From Acidobacteriaceae bacterium (lineage in GTDB: Bacteria > Acidobacteriota > Terriglobia > Terriglobales > Acidobacteriaceae), in assembly GCA_003165795.1 (NCBI GenBank), contig PMWW01000086.1:1-64000 (forward strand): a DNA stretch of 64,000 bases, read 5' to 3'. The notes under the pieces are model-generated. The model did not search any database and was not told the origin of the DNA. It saw only the letters and a list, made by a program, of their open reading frames with translations. Below, in pieces: positions 4,747-30,405 of this stretch. Position numbers and translations under genes: made by a program. Within the stretch, counting starts at the first letter, position 1; each line of letters begins with the position of its first letter.

Positions 4747-6399
4747 TCAGTTTTTTCTGCCCAGCGATTTGCGATAACGGCTGATCAGCGTATTGGTCGA
4801 GCTGTCGTGCTTCAACTGCGGCGCAGCCTCGCTCTCCAGTTCGGGAATAATACGCTTGGCCAGGACCTTGCCCAACTCCACGCCCCACTGATCGAAGGAA
4901 TCGATGTTCCACACCGCGCCCTGGGTGAAGACGTTATGCTCATACAGTGCCACCAGCGTGCCCAACGTGCGCGGCGTCAGCTTGTCGGCCAGGACCGTGT
5001 TGGTCGGGCGATTGCCTTCGCAAACCCGGAACGGCGTTTGGAAATCGGGCGAGCCCTCGGCCTTCAACTCCTCAGCGGTCTTGCCGAATGCCAGCGCCTC
5101 GGCCTGCGCCAAAACGTTGGCCATCAGGTAATCGTGCTGCACGGTCAGCGGACTCAGCGGCTGGCAGAAGCCGATAAAGTCGCAGGGGATGAGTTTCGTT
5201 CCTTGGTGGATCAACTGATAGAACGAGTGCTGCCCGTCAGTACCCGGCTCGCCCCAAATAATCGGACCTGTCTGCCATTCGACGTGATTGCCTTCGAGGT
5301 CGACGTGCTTGCCATTGCTCTCCATCTGCAACTGCTGCAGATAAGCTGGGAAGCGCTTCATGTTGTCCGCGTAGGGCATGATGCCGACGGTCTGCGCGCC
5401 GAAAAAGTTGTTGTACCACACGGTCAGAAGTCCCATCAGCGCCGGCAGGTTCTTCTCCAACGGCGTGGTGCGAAAATGCTCATCCATATCGTGGAAGCCG
5501 GCGAGCAGATCTTCGTAATTCTTGGGACCAACAGCAATCATGGTTGATAGGCCGATGGCGGAATCCATGGAGTAGCGTCCGCCAACCCAGTCCCAGAAAC
5601 CGAACATGTTGGCGGTGTCGATGCCGAACTTGGAGACGCCTTCGGCGTTGGTGGACACGGCGACGAAATGCTTGGCCACCGCCGAGTCGTTCTTCAGCGC
5701 GTCAACGATCCACTTGCGGGCGGTCGCCGCATTGGTCATGGTCTCCAAGGTGGTGAAGGTCTTGGAAGAAAGAATGAAGAGCGTTTCGGAAGCATCGAGA
5801 TCGTGGGTCGCATCGACGAACGCGGCGCCATCAACGTTAGCGACGAAACGGAATGTCATCTTGGGATCGCTTAAGTCGCGCAGCGCGATGTACGCCATCT
5901 CCGGCCCCAGATACGATCCGCCAATGCCGATGTTAATGACGTTCTTGATGGCTTTGCCGGTGTGACCTTTCCACTCGCCGCTGCGCACGCGATTGGAGAA
6001 GGCCGCCATCTTGTCGAGCACTTCATGCACGTCGGCGACAACATCTTTACCGTCGACTTCGATCCTGGTGCCGCGGGGAGCACGCAATGCAATGTGCAGG
6101 ACAGCGCGCTTCTCCGTGATGTTGATCTTCTTGCCGCAAAACATGGCGTCGCGACGCTCTTCCACGCCGCGCTCGCGGGCAAGCTGGACCAGCAGGCGCA
6201 TGGTCTCGTCCGTAACGCGGTTCTTAGAGTAATCCAGGTACAAACCGGGCCCCTCGGCGGTCAGACGTGTCCCACGTTGTGGGTCATCGGCGAACAATTG
6301 CCGGAGAGGGACGTCCTTGATTTTCTCGTAGTGCGCCTGCAGTGCTTTCCAGGCTGGGGCATCGGTTGGTCGAAGTGTGGTCATCTTCGGTTCCGCCAT
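4747..6399 (-). CDS. pgi: Glucose-6-phosphate isomerase
   Basis: A 550-residue enzyme converting glucose 6-phosphate to fructose 6-phosphate, joining glycolysis to the pentose phosphate genes around it. Landmarks are the sugar-phosphate-binding [25 protein letters not shown], and the family signature around [18 protein letters not shown]. Length fits the family. The frame is open upstream into repeat B1, but the ATG at 6399 ([12 protein letters not shown]) has a GGAGAG ribosome site five to six bases away, so it is chosen. It lies between tal and rpiA, separated from each by an interspersed repeat. Confidence 0.96.
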
Positions 6400-6445
6400 T
6401 TTCCGCTCTCCTATGTGTCGTCCTTGCGGCGTCTGTGTCAATAGC

Positions 6446-6540
6446 TGGTGTCGCCGCTCTGCGGCTCGTTTCTTTTTCCCACTTGATCGGGGGCTGACGC
6501 CCCCACCTAACACCATCTCGCCGCTGCGCGGCTGGTTTTA
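6446..6540 (+). repeat. Interspersed repeat B, copy 1
   Basis: About 95 bp with three small hairpins: GCCGCTCTGCGGC, GGGGGCTGACGCCCCC and GCCGCTGCGCGGC, ending in TGGTTTTAGC. Copies with the same order and spacing lie at 30423 and 61103. It sits between tal and pgi and reads through the upstream open frame of pgi. Confidence 0.8.
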
Positions 6541-6605
6541 GCGCTTATTTGACTATTTTCAACTGACGCTTCCTTAATTCTTACTTCCTAATTCAAACTC
6601 TTTCT

Positions 6606-7682
6606 CTACCTCAATGCTTTGCTCTTGGTATCGATCGACTTCAGCAAATCTTGCCACGATTCGTCGAAAGACTTTGCGCCTTCGGATTGCAAGTCAGCGG
6701 CAAGCTTTATCAGATCGATGCCAGCTTTGGTGAACTCCGACAACACCTGCTCGCAGTCTCCGCCGTCACGCGGGATGGGCTTGGCAATGCTGCCATGTTG
6801 TCCGAAGGCCAGCAGAGTTTTTTCGGGCATGGTGTTGACCGTATTCGGCGCAGCCAAGGCTCCGATATAAAGCACATCGGACGCCTTGGGATCTTTGGTG
6901 CCGGTGCTGGCGAAGAGCAGCCGCTGCGGTCTCGCACCCAGATTTTCCAGGCGTTGCCAGCGATCGGAGTCCAGCACATCGCGATATGCCTTATAGGCCC
7001 GCTGACCGATGGCCGGCCCTAGCTTGTCGCGGAGGTCGGTTGGCACCTTGTCCAGGGTCGCCTTGTCCCAACGGCTGACGAACAGCGACGCCACGGAGCG
7101 AATGTCGGGACTGAGGCCGGCTTCTACGCGCCGTTCCAGTCCACGCATGTAAGCTTCAGCGGCACCCTGATAGTGCTCGCGACTGAAGAGTAAAGTCACA
7201 TTGACCGACACCCCAGCGAAGATTGCTTCTTCGATGGCGACTCTGCCTTCTGGAGTGCCGGGAATCTTGATGAAGAGATTTGGACGAGCGGCTTTCTGGT
7301 GCAACGCTTTCGCCACTTCCACTGTTGTCTTGGCGTCGTAGGCCAGGAGCGGAGAAACCTCCAGCGACACCCAACCGTCGACGGCCGAGGTTCGCTGGTG
7401 GATAGGAGCGAACAAGTCGGCGGCGCGCCTTAGGTCTTCGATCGCCAACTCGAAGAAGGCATTTTCACCCGACAGCCCGCTTCCCATCAAGCGGCGAATC
7501 TCGTTGTCGTAGGAATTGCTGCGAGAGATGGCCTCGTCGAAAATCGTCGGGTTCGAGGTCAGCCCCGTCACCGAAAGCTCGTCAATGTAGCGCTTCAACG
7601 TGCCACTGTCGAGCAGCTCGCGGGTGATGTTGTCGAGCCATAGGCTCTGGCCGAGATCGTGTAGTTGTTGCGTGGCTTTCAT
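6606..7682 (-). CDS. tal: Transaldolase
   Basis: A 358-residue transaldolase transferring a dihydroxyacetone unit between sedoheptulose 7-phosphate and glyceraldehyde 3-phosphate. The N-terminal LWLDNITRELLDSG and GLTSNPTIF segments and the Schiff-base lysine in LFIKIPGTPEG are those of the longer bacterial/cyanobacterial type, which runs about 360-390 residues. A very strong ribosome site, GGAGGT six bases before the ATG, fixes the start. It follows the HAD hydrolase gene by 14 bp and precedes pgi, completing the non-oxidative branch with tkt and rpiA. Confidence 0.95.
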   Translation of the reverse strand: MKATQQLHDLGQSLWLDNITRELLDSGTLKRYIDELSVTGLTSNPTIFDEAISRSNSYDNEIRRLMGSGLSGENAFFELAIEDLRRAADLFAPIHQRTSAVDGWVSLEVSPLLAYDAKTTVEVAKALHQKAARPNLFIKIPGTPEGRVAIEEAIFAGVSVNVTLLFSREHYQGAAEAYMRGLERRVEAGLSPDIRSVASLFVSRWDKATLDKVPTDLRDKLGPAIGQRAYKAYRDVLDSDRWQRLENLGARPQRLLFASTGTKDPKASDVLYIGALAAPNTVNTMPEKTLLAFGQHGSIAKPIPRDGGDCEQVLSEFTKAGIDLIKLAADLQSEGAKSFDESWQDLLKSIDTKSKALR

Positions 7683-22728: not shown

Positions 22729-23113
22729 TTGCTAGCGCATTAGCTTGGGCTCGACAGCTCCCAAAAGAAGAAAAGCCAGGAAGGAAGCGGTTCCTTATCC
22801 TGACTCCATAATCATAGGATAGCACATTAAGGGTAGTCTTGGCTGGTATTTGGCTAAGTTTATATTCCAACTAGCATCAGTAGATTACGACGATTTAGGC
22901 ATGTTTGTGGGGCTTGACAAGCTATCCCCGAAGCGGGAATTTTACCGTTCTGCTGAGTCCAGAGCCAACATACGATGCGAGCGATCTTTTTCGCAACGGC
23001 TGGGCAGGGATTTCCATCTTTCGGGATGAACAGGCATAGGTCTTGCCTCCAGTCTGACGATGGACAGTCATCCCCGCTGCTATGCGATACTGAAAAAGTT
23101 TGGAGGCTGGTGC
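22729..23113. other. Intergenic region with no gene seen
   Basis: About 385 bp between the terminator and the SLOG-like gene. A TTGACA at 22914-22919 is followed 18 bp later by only a weak AATTTT, so a promoter is possible but not convincing. No conserved frame or repeat A/B copy is present. Confidence 0.35.
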
Positions 23114-23650
23114 ATGATCATAGCTCTATCCGGAAGGAGAGTCGATGCCTTTAAGGCGGAGCAGCCACGATTTCCGCTGGAAAATGTTGCCTGCGTGAAG
23201 GACGAAGTCCGGCGGATGCTGCAGAGCCAACAAGTCACCGCAGTGGTGAGTTCGGCCGCCTGCGGAGCCGACTTGATTGTCTTGTCCGAGGCGGGCTCTC
23301 TAGGCTTGCGACGGAGAGTGGTCCTACCGTTCGAACCCAAGCGCTTCCGCGAGACCTCGGTAGTCGACCGGCCCGGAGACTGGGGCACCATCTACGATCA
23401 AGTCATCGACCAGGTCGAAACCAACGGCGATCTCGTAGTTCTCGGCAAGACCGATCAGGACGACCCTTATGCCGCGACCAATAAAGTGATCCTCAGCGAA
23501 GCTATCGCCTTGGCCGGCCAAACTAAAGAACCCGTTGGCGCGTTACTGATATGGGAGGGCGCCTCGCGAGGTAAGGAAGACTTTACCGAGTCGCTCGGTG
23601 CGGAAGCCCGCAAGCTAGCCTTACCAGTGTTCGAGATTTTGACCAAGTAG
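23114..23650 (+). CDS. Predicted SLOG/LOG-like nucleotide-binding protein
   Basis: A 178-residue soluble protein with a Rossmann-like layout: N-terminal beta strand MIIALSGRRVD, a mid segment VVSSAACGADLIVLSEA, then RRVVLPFEPKRFRETSV and GDLVVLGKTD. The 'CGAD.. EA .. G ... VVLPF' arrangement resembles SLOG-type domains (the DprA/Smf, LOG and TRPM group) found near signalling proteins; that is a judgement by eye. An upstream in-frame ATG exists at 23060, but GGAGG at 23102-23106 lies seven bases before the ATG at 23114. It stands alone between two unrelated blocks. Nucleotide or nucleotide-derivative binding is inferred; the ligand is unknown. Confidence 0.6.
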   Translation: MIIALSGRRVDAFKAEQPRFPLENVACVKDEVRRMLQSQQVTAVVSSAACGADLIVLSEAGSLGLRRRVVLPFEPKRFRETSVVDRPGDWGTIYDQVIDQVETNGDLVVLGKTDQDDPYAATNKVILSEAIALAGQTKEPVGALLIWEGASRGKEDFTESLGAEARKLALPVFEILTK

Positions 23651-26496: not shown

Positions 26497-27760
26497 ATGA
26501 AATCATTACTACGACTTACGACGGTTATGTTTGCGGTGCTGGGATCGGGAATTCCCGTCTGTGCACAGGTCATGATGCCCATGGAGCTGTCCGATCCAAG
26601 GCGCAACATCTGCAGCAGAAGCATTTGAAAACGCTGATGGCGATCGGCGGCGAGATCGGAGACCACAAGTTTCCCTATCCGTTCTACTTCAGCCGCGTGC
26701 TCGACGTCGATCTTGCTAAGGGGCAAGCGGCTGACCAGCGTTCGATCCGTTTTGACAGTTACAAGAACCAAACCGTGCTGGAGATCACGGGCAATTACTA
26801 CGCTGCCTACTCGGCGGACCGCATGGATTCGTATGCCCGGCTAAAGGAAACCTCGAGCGGGTTATCACGCCCATATTGCAGGCAGAGGTTTCGCACTTTC
26901 CAGATGATTCCGAATTTTCCGCTTTCGCAATCGAAGTTTCGCACCACGTGCGGGAGCAGGTCATGGGGCTAAATTCCGAGCAGCCGGAGAATGTCACCGT
27001 CGTGGTCCCGGTGGCCGTGGCGCAGAAGTTTGTGGACGCCAAGACCGACGACCAGAAGCAGGCCGCGATCCTGGAAGCGCAGATATTCCTCAATGGTCAG
27101 CCTTATTCGCTGTGGTTGCAGGAAGGTGCTCCCAGCGAGGAATGGAAAGAGAGGAATACTCCGCAAGCGTTGGCGAACAAACCTACTGTCGTGGCGGTCA
27201 GCGCTACTGCGAATACCGCAGCGGCGGCCTCGCCTTCCGTCGCCAGCAATTTGCTGAAGACCTCACCGACGCCCATGCGGATTGTCACACCCGAGGCACT
27301 GACTGGACTGCAGCGCCAGAACCAGGATGATATCGATCGCATGATGAAAGCTCTGGACCCGGAGGCGCACTTCCTGGCTTACGCAGCGCCCACGTTCATA
27401 GGATTTCGGCAGGGTGCCTACTTACAACTTTCCTTTCGCACTTCACTGGGCGCTCCCAGCACCACCTCGCGCTACAAACTCGCGGCACTAGCTTTCGATG
27501 AGCACGTTTCCCACCTGATCCGTCCGCTGTTGACCTACTTCCCGCCCGAAGTTGAGTTTGACGGTGTCGATTTCAGCAGCACCATTCATCTTGCCGGCGA
27601 CTCGACGGCGGAGGCGGTGGAATTCTTTTTTCCCTTCCGCATGATGCACTGCTTCGCCCACTACGACTGCACCGGGCAGCAGTTGCTGGACTCAGGCACC
27701 ATCGTCATTAACGGCGAGCGGTCCGCACTCGATCTGCAAGTGGCCGAAAGCAAGAACTAG
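26497..27760 (+). pseudogene. Secreted protein gene with two frameshifts
   Basis: One gene spread over three frames. It starts MKSLLRLTTVMFAVLG with a signal peptide ending near VCAQ. After MELSDP (about 26596-26598, a CC before AAGG) the reading shifts by minus one to continue KAQHLQQKHLKTLMAIGGEI and VLDVDLAKGQAADQRS. At about 26850-26853 (ACCTCGAG) it shifts by minus one again to LERVITPILQAEVSHFPDDS and runs to 27760. Restoring one C at each site gives a continuous 421-residue product. The last third has no motif I recognise. Either a real pseudogene or two homopolymer errors in the assembly; the short product in the first frame would stop at 26628. Confidence 0.75.
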
Positions 27761-27864: not shown

Positions 27865-30405
27865 ATGTTTCACCCAGTCTGGAAGATGTTCCCACCCCGA
27901 GTTAGGAAGATGGTATTTACGTTCAGGTACCGATATGTCGATTTCGGGACAGTCTTCATCGGCGCCTCTGGAATCAGGGGCGCGGAGAGCAGAGAAGAAT
28001 CTCCGGCCACGCTGTATGCGAACGAGTTGGTCACCGACGTAGGCGGGACCTGCTGGGACCGCAATGAGCCGCTGGCGATTATCGATCATCATTTTTCCCG
28101 GGATGGCCAGTTTCCCTCGGCTTCGGCCGCGGTGCTGCACAAAGCAAAACTGATTCGAGCAAAGTTTGCCGGCGGGGAGTTCGACACGATATGGCTAGTC
28201 ACGCACAAGCAGCCGGACTTCGACGCTTTTTGTTCGCTGTACCTGGCGCGCTGGACCGTGCAAGACCCCAATGCGGCGATTGATTGGGAAGCTTACGGCT
28301 TGCCCGCTGACGGCTGGATCGATTCCGCCGGCAAGCGCAAGATCGATTGGTTCGATCCCGATTTTGACCAGGGGTCCGCCGAACATCGCTGGGCGCTGCA
28401 GCTCGCCAGTTACGCCTCGATTGTCGACAACAGCCGGCATCTCTCGTGTCCCATACAACGCGCGCTGCACTCGGTGCTGTACGCCGCGCTGAAACGTGGC
28501 CGCGACTATTTGAACGACACTAGCGGCGCGTGTGAATTTTTCGACGAGGTCAAGATTGCGCTGCAAGAAAAGCGGCTGAATCCGATGGTTGATTCGGTGC
28601 TGGAAGGCAGCTCCCGATTCGCGCCGGAACTGGCGATGCTGGACCGCGAAATCGAGGCTTATCAGCGAGACATCCGGCGGGCGCGCAAGTCGATTGTGTA
28701 TTTGCCGGAATCAGAGGCACCCTTCCCGAACTTCTTCAAGAGCGTGAAGGATGTTGCTGTGCTGAAAGAAAGAGATCCCGGCAAGTCGCTGGAGACCAAC
28801 GCCGAGCATTTGCTGCTGGCGGACACTTATCGCATTCCCACCGACGGCATTTACCTGCGCGATCCGGAGTGTTTGCTGTTTAGAGAATGGGCGCGCCTCG
28901 ACCTGGAACATTCGTCCCTCGGCGCGGGCTTCGAATTCACCGCCATCGCGCATTCCCGCGGCCGTCCTGGGGGAGCCATCAATAAGAGCGATTACGTTTT
29001 CTCGATCGATCCCGAGCGCGCTAACGGACGGCACCTGTATACGGTTTGGTCCCGGCTGCAGACCAAAGAAGTGCAGGCGCTGAATGCACGGGAGCAGGGC
29101 CACGCTAGCTCGCCAGAAGCCAGTCGCTCGCTAGAAAAACGCGCGGGAGATCTGGGTCGTCTGTTCACCGATCCCTGGTTCGACGGGCAAAATTGCTTTG
29201 GGACCATCGTGGCTGCTCCCCATCGGGGAAGCATGATCGGCCGCCCCGGCGTGCGCAGCGACTTGCGTGACGACCCTGTAGCCGAAGCGGTGCGGACGGA
29301 TGTCGAGGATTCGATTTACTCGGCAGAATCGCTGGTGTCGGGTCCGCAGGTTGTGGTCACCGATTTTTCCAGCTCGCAGAATGAGGCGGACGCTTCTCCG
29401 CGGCAATTCGACCTGAACGCTCTGCAACAAATTCCGGCGCCTCACGAACAGCATTTCCGCTTCGGCAGCATCTGCCTACGGGCGGACGTTCCCATCGTCC
29501 CCGGAGGCACTTCGCGGCACAGCCTGGCAGGACAGATTGCGGAGACGCTTTGGCAAGTGCTCTACCCGGATCTTTTCGACGCCAAGCCGCTGGACTTCGT
29601 CGAGCACCATCTGATTGTTACCGCCGATTGCGTCGGGGTGTGGGGCCGGCGGGGCATCGTCATCGCAAGCAAGCGTAAAGTCGCCAGCGATACCAGTCAA
29701 GTGGGCTTTTACCGGGCGAATGAAACTGACGGAGGGCTGCGCGACGAATTCGCCAGGGTTGTTGCTCTGGCTCGAGATATCGATCAGCTGATTGCGGATG
29801 GCGAACATCTCGCCCAGCAAACGCCAACGACAACGTCGGTGGGCGAGCACCATAAACCCGCCGCAGAAGAATCGTTGCCGCGGATCGTTGCCAAAGGCGA
29901 GGGCTTGGCGCGGCGCGCGGCCCAAGTGAAACACAATCTGACTTTGCCCAACCGCGATTTGCTGCGGCGCTTTTGCGAGGCAATTGGAATCGACGAATTA
30001 CTCGGGGCTTTGGGCGGGCTAAATCAGTTGGCTGGGGAACACCTGCTCCGCGAAAAGTTGGACGATCAAAGCGTAATTCTTAAGAGTAATGCGGATCTCG
30101 CCGCCGGGTTAAAGAACAAGCTCGAATGGCTCGAAGTATTTGTTGTCGGCTTCTACGCCACCTCGGTACTTTCGCTGATCTCCACCCACGTTCCGGCTGC
30201 GGGCGGGAGTTGGGGAGCGCCCGTTACTCTGCTTGGCGGTCTCTTCTTCGTCCTGTTTGCGGCGTGGATACTGAAGCCATGGGACCATTCGCCAGAGAAA
30301 ATAAAGCGGAGCGGTAGCCGGAGCCTGTGGCTGCTGGGCGTGCTTGTTCTGTCTTACATTGTCGGACTGCTTCTTTGGATCTGGCTTCGAGGGTCGGCAG
30401 GTTAG
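27865..30405 (+). CDS. Membrane-anchored DHH/MYG1-like protein with permuted motifs
   Basis: An 846-residue protein that I cannot assign to a characterised family. Residues about 58-77 read TDVGGTCW then IIDHHF, like the DVGG...DHH part of MYG1-type DHH hydrolases, followed by FPSASAAVLH. Only afterwards (about 113-122) comes THKQPDFDAF, which resembles the first metal-binding motif (H..PD.DA) that normally precedes DHH; YASIVDNSRH near 187-196 could be the next Asp motif. A long middle part (about 250-650) is soluble and unassigned. Three membrane helices lie at about 755-775, 782-802 and 821-843. Metal-dependent phosphoester hydrolysis is inferred, the substrate unknown. The start is uncertain: 27865, or 27910 with AGGA close by. 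Confidence 0.75.
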   Translation: MFHPVWKMFPPRVRKMVFTFRYRYVDFGTVFIGASGIRGAESREESPATLYANELVTDVGGTCWDRNEPLAIIDHHFSRDGQFPSASAAVLHKAKLIRAKFAGGEFDTIWLVTHKQPDFDAFCSLYLARWTVQDPNAAIDWEAYGLPADGWIDSAGKRKIDWFDPDFDQGSAEHRWALQLASYASIVDNSRHLSCPIQRALHSVLYAALKRGRDYLNDTSGACEFFDEVKIALQEKRLNPMVDSVLEGSSRFAPELAMLDREIEAYQRDIRRARKSIVYLPESEAPFPNFFKSVKDVAVLKERDPGKSLETNAEHLLLADTYRIPTDGIYLRDPECLLFREWARLDLEHSSLGAGFEFTAIAHSRGRPGGAINKSDYVFSIDPERANGRHLYTVWSRLQTKEVQALNAREQGHASSPEASRSLEKRAGDLGRLFTDPWFDGQNCFGTIVAAPHRGSMIGRPGVRSDLRDDPVAEAVRTDVEDSIYSAESLVSGPQVVVTDFSSSQNEADASPRQFDLNALQQIPAPHEQHFRFGSICLRADVPIVPGGTSRHSLAGQIAETLWQVLYPDLFDAKPLDFVEHHLIVTADCVGVWGRRGIVIASKRKVASDTSQVGFYRANETDGGLRDEFARVVALARDIDQLIADGEHLAQQTPTTTSVGEHHKPAAEESLPRIVAKGEGLARRAAQVKHNLTLPNRDLLRRFCEAIGIDELLGALGGLNQLAGEHLLREKLDDQSVILKSNADLAAGLKNKLEWLEVFVVGFYATSVLSLISTHVPAAGGSWGAPVTLLGGLFFVLFAAWILKPWDHSPEKIKRSGSRSLWLLGVLVLSYIVGLLLWIWLRGSAG

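Follow-up and report, generated by a model that had tools for sequence, protein, structure and literature searches.

An Acidobacteriaceae protein that joins a DHH-superfamily core of rearranged metal-motif order to a putative CorA-like membrane region

Can the metal-binding core of a DHH enzyme be assembled from its segments in another order, and what might such a protein do at a membrane? The question is raised by an open reading frame of an Acidobacteriaceae bacterium (contig PMWW01000086.1), found in the 64,000-nucleotide stretch of DNA that was analysed as a whole (the window). Canonical DHH proteins carry their motifs in the order I-II-III-IV. In the protein encoded here, DVGG (residue 58) and IIDHHF (72) precede THKQPDFDAF (113), and SIVDN (185, containing Asp188) comes last. 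DHH and H..PD.D co-occurred in 5 of 20,000 shuffles of this protein. The reading frame is intact and spans 846 amino acids, but translation more likely starts at Met16, because its nearest relative, the 54%-identical homologue L004, begins at the equivalent Met. The GC content of the gene is that of the window (0.588), and its GC3 (0.68) is below that of three neighbours (0.74-0.78). The features discussed below are the following.

27865-30405, + strand: whole open reading frame, with a rearranged DHH core, a C-terminal domain and a probable CorA-like membrane region (homologues L004, L057, L058)
27910-27912, + strand: probable true start, Met16
27910-28176, + strand: block II-III, residues 16-104, with strand FRYRYVDFG, motif II DVGG and motif III DHH (family alignments, hhalign block tests)
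28036-28047, + strand: motif II DVGG, residues 58-61, Asp58 being a predicted metal ligand (neither D nor G varies in 44 sequences)
28084-28092, + strand: motif III, D74-H75-H76 (invariant in 44 sequences, lost in pseudoenzyme members)
28177-28272, + strand: motif I block, residues 105-136, which comes first in canonical DHH proteins (placing it in front restores the canonical DHH match)
28204-28227, + strand: motif I, H114-KQ-P-D118-F-D120-A (H, P, D and D invariant; sub-threshold PF01368 match)
28426-28428, + strand: putative motif IV, Asp188 (invariant; reordering is needed to pair it with the TDTG or LQDSAG Asp of canonical relatives)
28684-29229, + strand: core C-terminal domain, residues ~274-455, with WARLD (342-346) and DPWFDGQ (436-442) (conserved across the family)
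29332-30402, + strand: putative CorA-like region, residues ~490-846, with an alpha/beta part, long helices and membrane helices (Foldseek, full model)
30127-30192, + strand: hydrophobic segment 1, residues 755-776 (hydropathy, helix prediction)
30214-30276, + strand: hydrophobic segment 2, residues 784-804 (hydropathy, helix prediction)
30316-30399, + strand: hydrophobic segment 3, residues 818-845 (hydropathy, helix prediction)

Relatives were gathered by searching the phylum and by scanning GTDB genomes; the scan gave 44 loci, to which others were added. Ten residues, equivalent to D58, G60, D74, H75, H76, H114, P117, D118, D120 and D188, are invariant in 44 aligned relatives, and all active members have the order II-III-I-IV. 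The succession DVGG, DHH, HKQPDFDA, Asp given in the original prediction was borne out, and it belongs to a recurring family, not to one protein. The commonest form is ~350 amino acids long and comes mostly from Aminicenantes. It carries DVG, PGVIDHHHPEAE, ITHRLPDFDA and LVDSA, followed by a C-terminal domain with WARRD, GVDP.GVNL.GL, WYDGN and DSPQDG. The membrane part is absent from most family members (Aminicenantes). No model for the core was found in Pfam, NCBIfam or PADLOC. Pfam searches reached the DHH family (PF01368), with matches that start at motif I and stay under the cut-off of 28.1 bits, both for the window protein (12.5 bits, E=0.18) and for the best family member (20.1 bits; L011, E=8e-4). 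A BFVD search gave no significant match, and literature searches on a permuted DHH family returned nothing. Plasmids, phages and viral contigs held no relatives, and a phage or plasmid origin was dropped.

We then compared the family with canonical proteins by block reordering in hhalign. The family alignment was divided into block 1 (motifs II-III, residues 1-72 in L016 numbering), block 2 (motif I, 73-104), block 3 (motif IV and helices) and block 4 (C-terminal). In native order the match to the NrnA profile scored 32.3 (probability 14.5%), with motif I alone aligned; in the order 2-1-3-4 it scored 49.5 (84.9%), with motifs I through IV aligned. The order 3-2-1-4 was equally good, with coverage of I-III only. 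Orders in which block 2 did not stand directly before block 1 gave 10-15%, and the column-shuffle control reached a maximum score of 20.1. When a 32-residue segment was moved from every eighth position, a single peak was obtained, exactly at residues 73-104. In the reciprocal test, block-swapped NrnA matched the native family at 83.6% and unswapped NrnA at 9.5%. As a control, comparisons among canonical families gave their highest scores with the canonical order kept.

The same shift was seen when the window protein itself supplied the frame (13% to 79%) and with an independent template, the planctomycete relative L074 (31% in native order, 80% reordered). The latter (L074:1468-3021) is a 518-residue DHH relative of canonical order (HEYPDLDA, VDLGGGKFDTHP, LQDSAG) with no Pfam match. 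The N-terminal strand of the family, FVPYGE, aligned with the L074 strand that follows motif I, and the junction could therefore be located. The profiles of PpaC and RecJ could not tell the orders apart and were uninformative as templates, and the test was powerless with only the three closest sequences.

Because of these block-reordering tests we read the order as II-III-I-IV, and a rearranged DHH fold is well supported and very probable. The rise against NrnA, for example, upholds the earlier proposal of a DHH-superfamily core with a non-canonical order of metal motifs. That proposal also called the core circularly permuted, which holds in part. Rotating I-II-III-IV gives II-III-IV-I, whereas motif IV is still last in the observed order; a strict circular permutation of the whole four-motif set was rejected. 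Judged from the alignments, circular permutation is confined to the I-II-III core, in which II-III has been exchanged with I. The motif-I strand-helix unit has shifted from its place ahead of motifs II-III to one behind them, and the Asp of motif IV has remained last. The equivalence of motif IV is suggested by its alignment after reordering, though motif IV itself does not raise the score. By motifs I (HxxPDxDA), II (D), III (DHH) and IV (D) together with the reordering tests, the family is kin to DHH proteins at the level of the superfamily.

We used structure prediction to compare the core with known folds. The model of the short member L016 was confident (pLDDT 95.8, pTM 0.93), and in accordance with the original prediction its best-matching PDB entries included DHH enzymes. 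Rank 1 was yeast exopolyphosphatase PPX1 (2qb6; probability 0.87, 340 alignment columns, with a weak E of 1.4e-3); other top matches were an unnamed Helicobacter pylori protein and, at rank 4, Borrelia DhhP (9r7o). Both 2qb6 and 9r7o are DHH enzymes, and their global superposition with L016 was poor (TM ~0.2-0.3), a value that would fit a reordered fold under a sequential aligner and, alone, would also be compatible with an unrelated fold. The profile search matched DhhP with motif I and DHH paired in the opposite order; its lipase and coiled-coil PDB matches were taken as chance. From the conservation and the confident fold prediction, we predict that the conserved Asp and His residues re-form the usual two-metal site. 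All catalytic residues are kept in the window protein and in the membrane-fused relatives L004, L057 and L058, and the core is likely to be an active hydrolase that would bind metal.

Among known DHH proteins, NrnA and other DHH-DHHA1 enzymes share motifs I, II, III and probably IV with the family and align once motif I is put first. They differ in motif order and in the C-terminal domain, which had no DHHA1 profile match (0.3% probability for the C-terminal block against NrnA). PPX1, the best fold match, differs in motif order, and no significant sequence similarity to it was found. The likeness to MYG1 that had been proposed is local: the DVGG...DHH segment resembles VDVGG...YDHHQ of MYG1 (PF03690), as seen in L084, but motif I is of the NrnA/PPase type (HxxPDxDA, against HGGPAHRDE in L084) and the order differs. 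Pfam scans found no MYG1_exonuc match in the window protein or its relatives, nor in its own genome, and membership in MYG1 was rejected.

The rest of the protein, put down as about 550 unassigned residues in the original prediction, turned out to be largely assignable, as the conserved C-terminal domain and, by predicted fold and with moderate confidence, a CorA-like region. The expected three C-terminal helices of a membrane anchor were recovered as the three hydrophobic segments listed above. The model of the whole protein had a mean pLDDT of 71.8; values were ~80-90 over much of the core and 60-70 in the helical tail. A Foldseek search of this model against the PDB returned CorA channels (probability 0.99, lowest E 2.3e-5, TM ~0.1-0.2 on a model of pLDDT 72). 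In the clostridial relative L058, the equivalent tail matched the PADLOC CRISPR-CorA models at 2e-18, and the tail of L078 gave a weak match to CorA-like models. No CorA sequence match was found for the window tail with HMM or hhalign, nor a profile alignment to the L058 tail; CorA by sequence was given up for this protein and the assignment kept by fold alone. Unlike CorA magnesium channels (PF01544, with no match in the window's own genome), it has no GMN motif and has an extra hydrophobic segment. Taken together, we consider the C-terminal region to be probably a divergent CorA-like membrane region. In a further Bacillota gene, L083 (G835, 5674-7670), the core is degenerate and lacks the DHH motifs, and a CorA-like tail follows it, the whole spread over two overlapping frames; its downstream neighbours are unidentified.

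What would such a combination do? In SAM-AMP signalling by type III-B CRISPR systems, CorA is paired with the DHH phosphodiesterase NrN, adjacent or fused (PMC10600005). NrN-type enzymes hydrolyse the SAM-AMP messenger (PMC10600005), and in Aliarcobacter butzleri NrN and CorA are encoded as a fusion (Chi et al. 2023, PMC10600005). The window protein combines its parts likewise, with a DHH phosphodiesterase-like core joined to a putative divergent CorA-family membrane protein, and it is a relative of this protein, L058, that matches CRISPR-CorA models. It differs in its rearranged core and in a tail that matches CorA by fold alone. A role as a CRISPR effector in the window genome was rejected, as the Cmr2 palm domain of Cas10 was not detected there (one Pfam family searched); no cas genes were noted among the ORFs of the window.

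From the NrN-CorA pairing of parts we infer a signal-removing phosphoesterase. By analogy, the CorA-like membrane part would be acted on by a small phosphodiester signal, which the fused metal-dependent phosphoesterase would hydrolyse, switching the membrane part off. As the original prediction had proposed, the protein plausibly acts on a nucleotide signal. We give about an even chance to the explanation as a whole, a rearranged DHH phosphoesterase that removes a signal acting on its own CorA-like part. That the enzyme degrades a signal and is coupled to a pore of its own, with signal and gating both deduced by analogy, we put forward more tentatively. No adjoining synthase gene, conserved or otherwise, was recognised. 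Nor was a conserved operon partner found for the membrane-fused form. Directly upstream, the gene at 26876-27760 (+) gave a Pfam SAVED sensor domain match at E=0.019 only and nothing in PADLOC or the PDB; a SAVED-like partner was set aside. At 23060-23650 (+) lies a 196-residue protein that matched nothing in Pfam or PADLOC; on a sequence impression, it may be a nucleotide-binding protein of the SLOG type.

The family also occurs in other contexts. Active cores are fused to membrane tails (window protein, L004, L057, L058), to class III cyclases (L064, L065) and to a kinase plus TIR (L006). The standalone genes of Aminicenantes have a conserved neighbourhood, often beside a MutY or GAF-GGDEF gene. 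The latter was seen at L029:4858-5946 and, as similar genes, at other Aminicenantes loci; the L029 gene has GQNEF in place of the GGDEF signature, and the cyclase may be inactive. This neighbourhood suggests a general cellular role and agrees with a membrane-tethered housekeeping phosphoesterase or phosphatase, acting on short oligonucleotides, pAp, polyphosphate or pyrophosphate, whose CorA-like part would be an anchor or an ion-responsive regulator. Such a reading also accords with PPX1 as the best structural neighbour and with the link of CorA channels to magnesium. We nevertheless regard it as rather unlikely, since in its lineage the gene is rare and has a patchy distribution (2 of the 61 genomes searched, its own and those of relatives) and fusions to signalling or cell-death domains recur among the relatives.

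Planctomycete members that carry a fused caspase or cyclase domain have lost the DHH block, the His and first Asp of motif I and the motif IV Asp. They retain the C-terminal R, mostly as RxD, and the W-F/Y-DG region. In L066, L067, L069-L073, L076 and L077 the dead core is joined through a hydrophobic stretch to a caspase-like peptidase, which was confirmed as Pfam Peptidase_C14 in L077. In L068 and L075 it is fused to class III cyclases, and the same genome (G716) holds the caspase-fused L077. This retention without metal motifs would suit a ligand sensor, in which the C-terminal half binds a nucleotide and signals to the output domain, with catalysis secondary or a timer only; for the window protein we think this improbable, because it retains every catalytic residue, as do L004, L057 and L058.

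The preferred reading is thus a rearranged phosphoesterase that would remove a signal acting on its own CorA-like part. A wider reading, of somewhat less than even likelihood, is that the family is an undescribed non-CRISPR one of defence or stress signalling. Its DHH active site would have been rebuilt by segment exchange, and messenger-removing or, where dead, messenger-reading modules would sit on CorA-like pores and on TIR, caspase and cyclase domains. If this is true, a two-metal DHH active site survives the exchange of core segments, and a family with no entry in Pfam or NCBIfam gains a fold and a likely activity. It would also suggest that the enzyme-plus-CorA pairing of SAM-AMP CRISPR signalling exists outside CRISPR, and the caspase-fused pseudoenzyme branch would connect nucleotide recognition with bacterial cell death in a way that can be tested.
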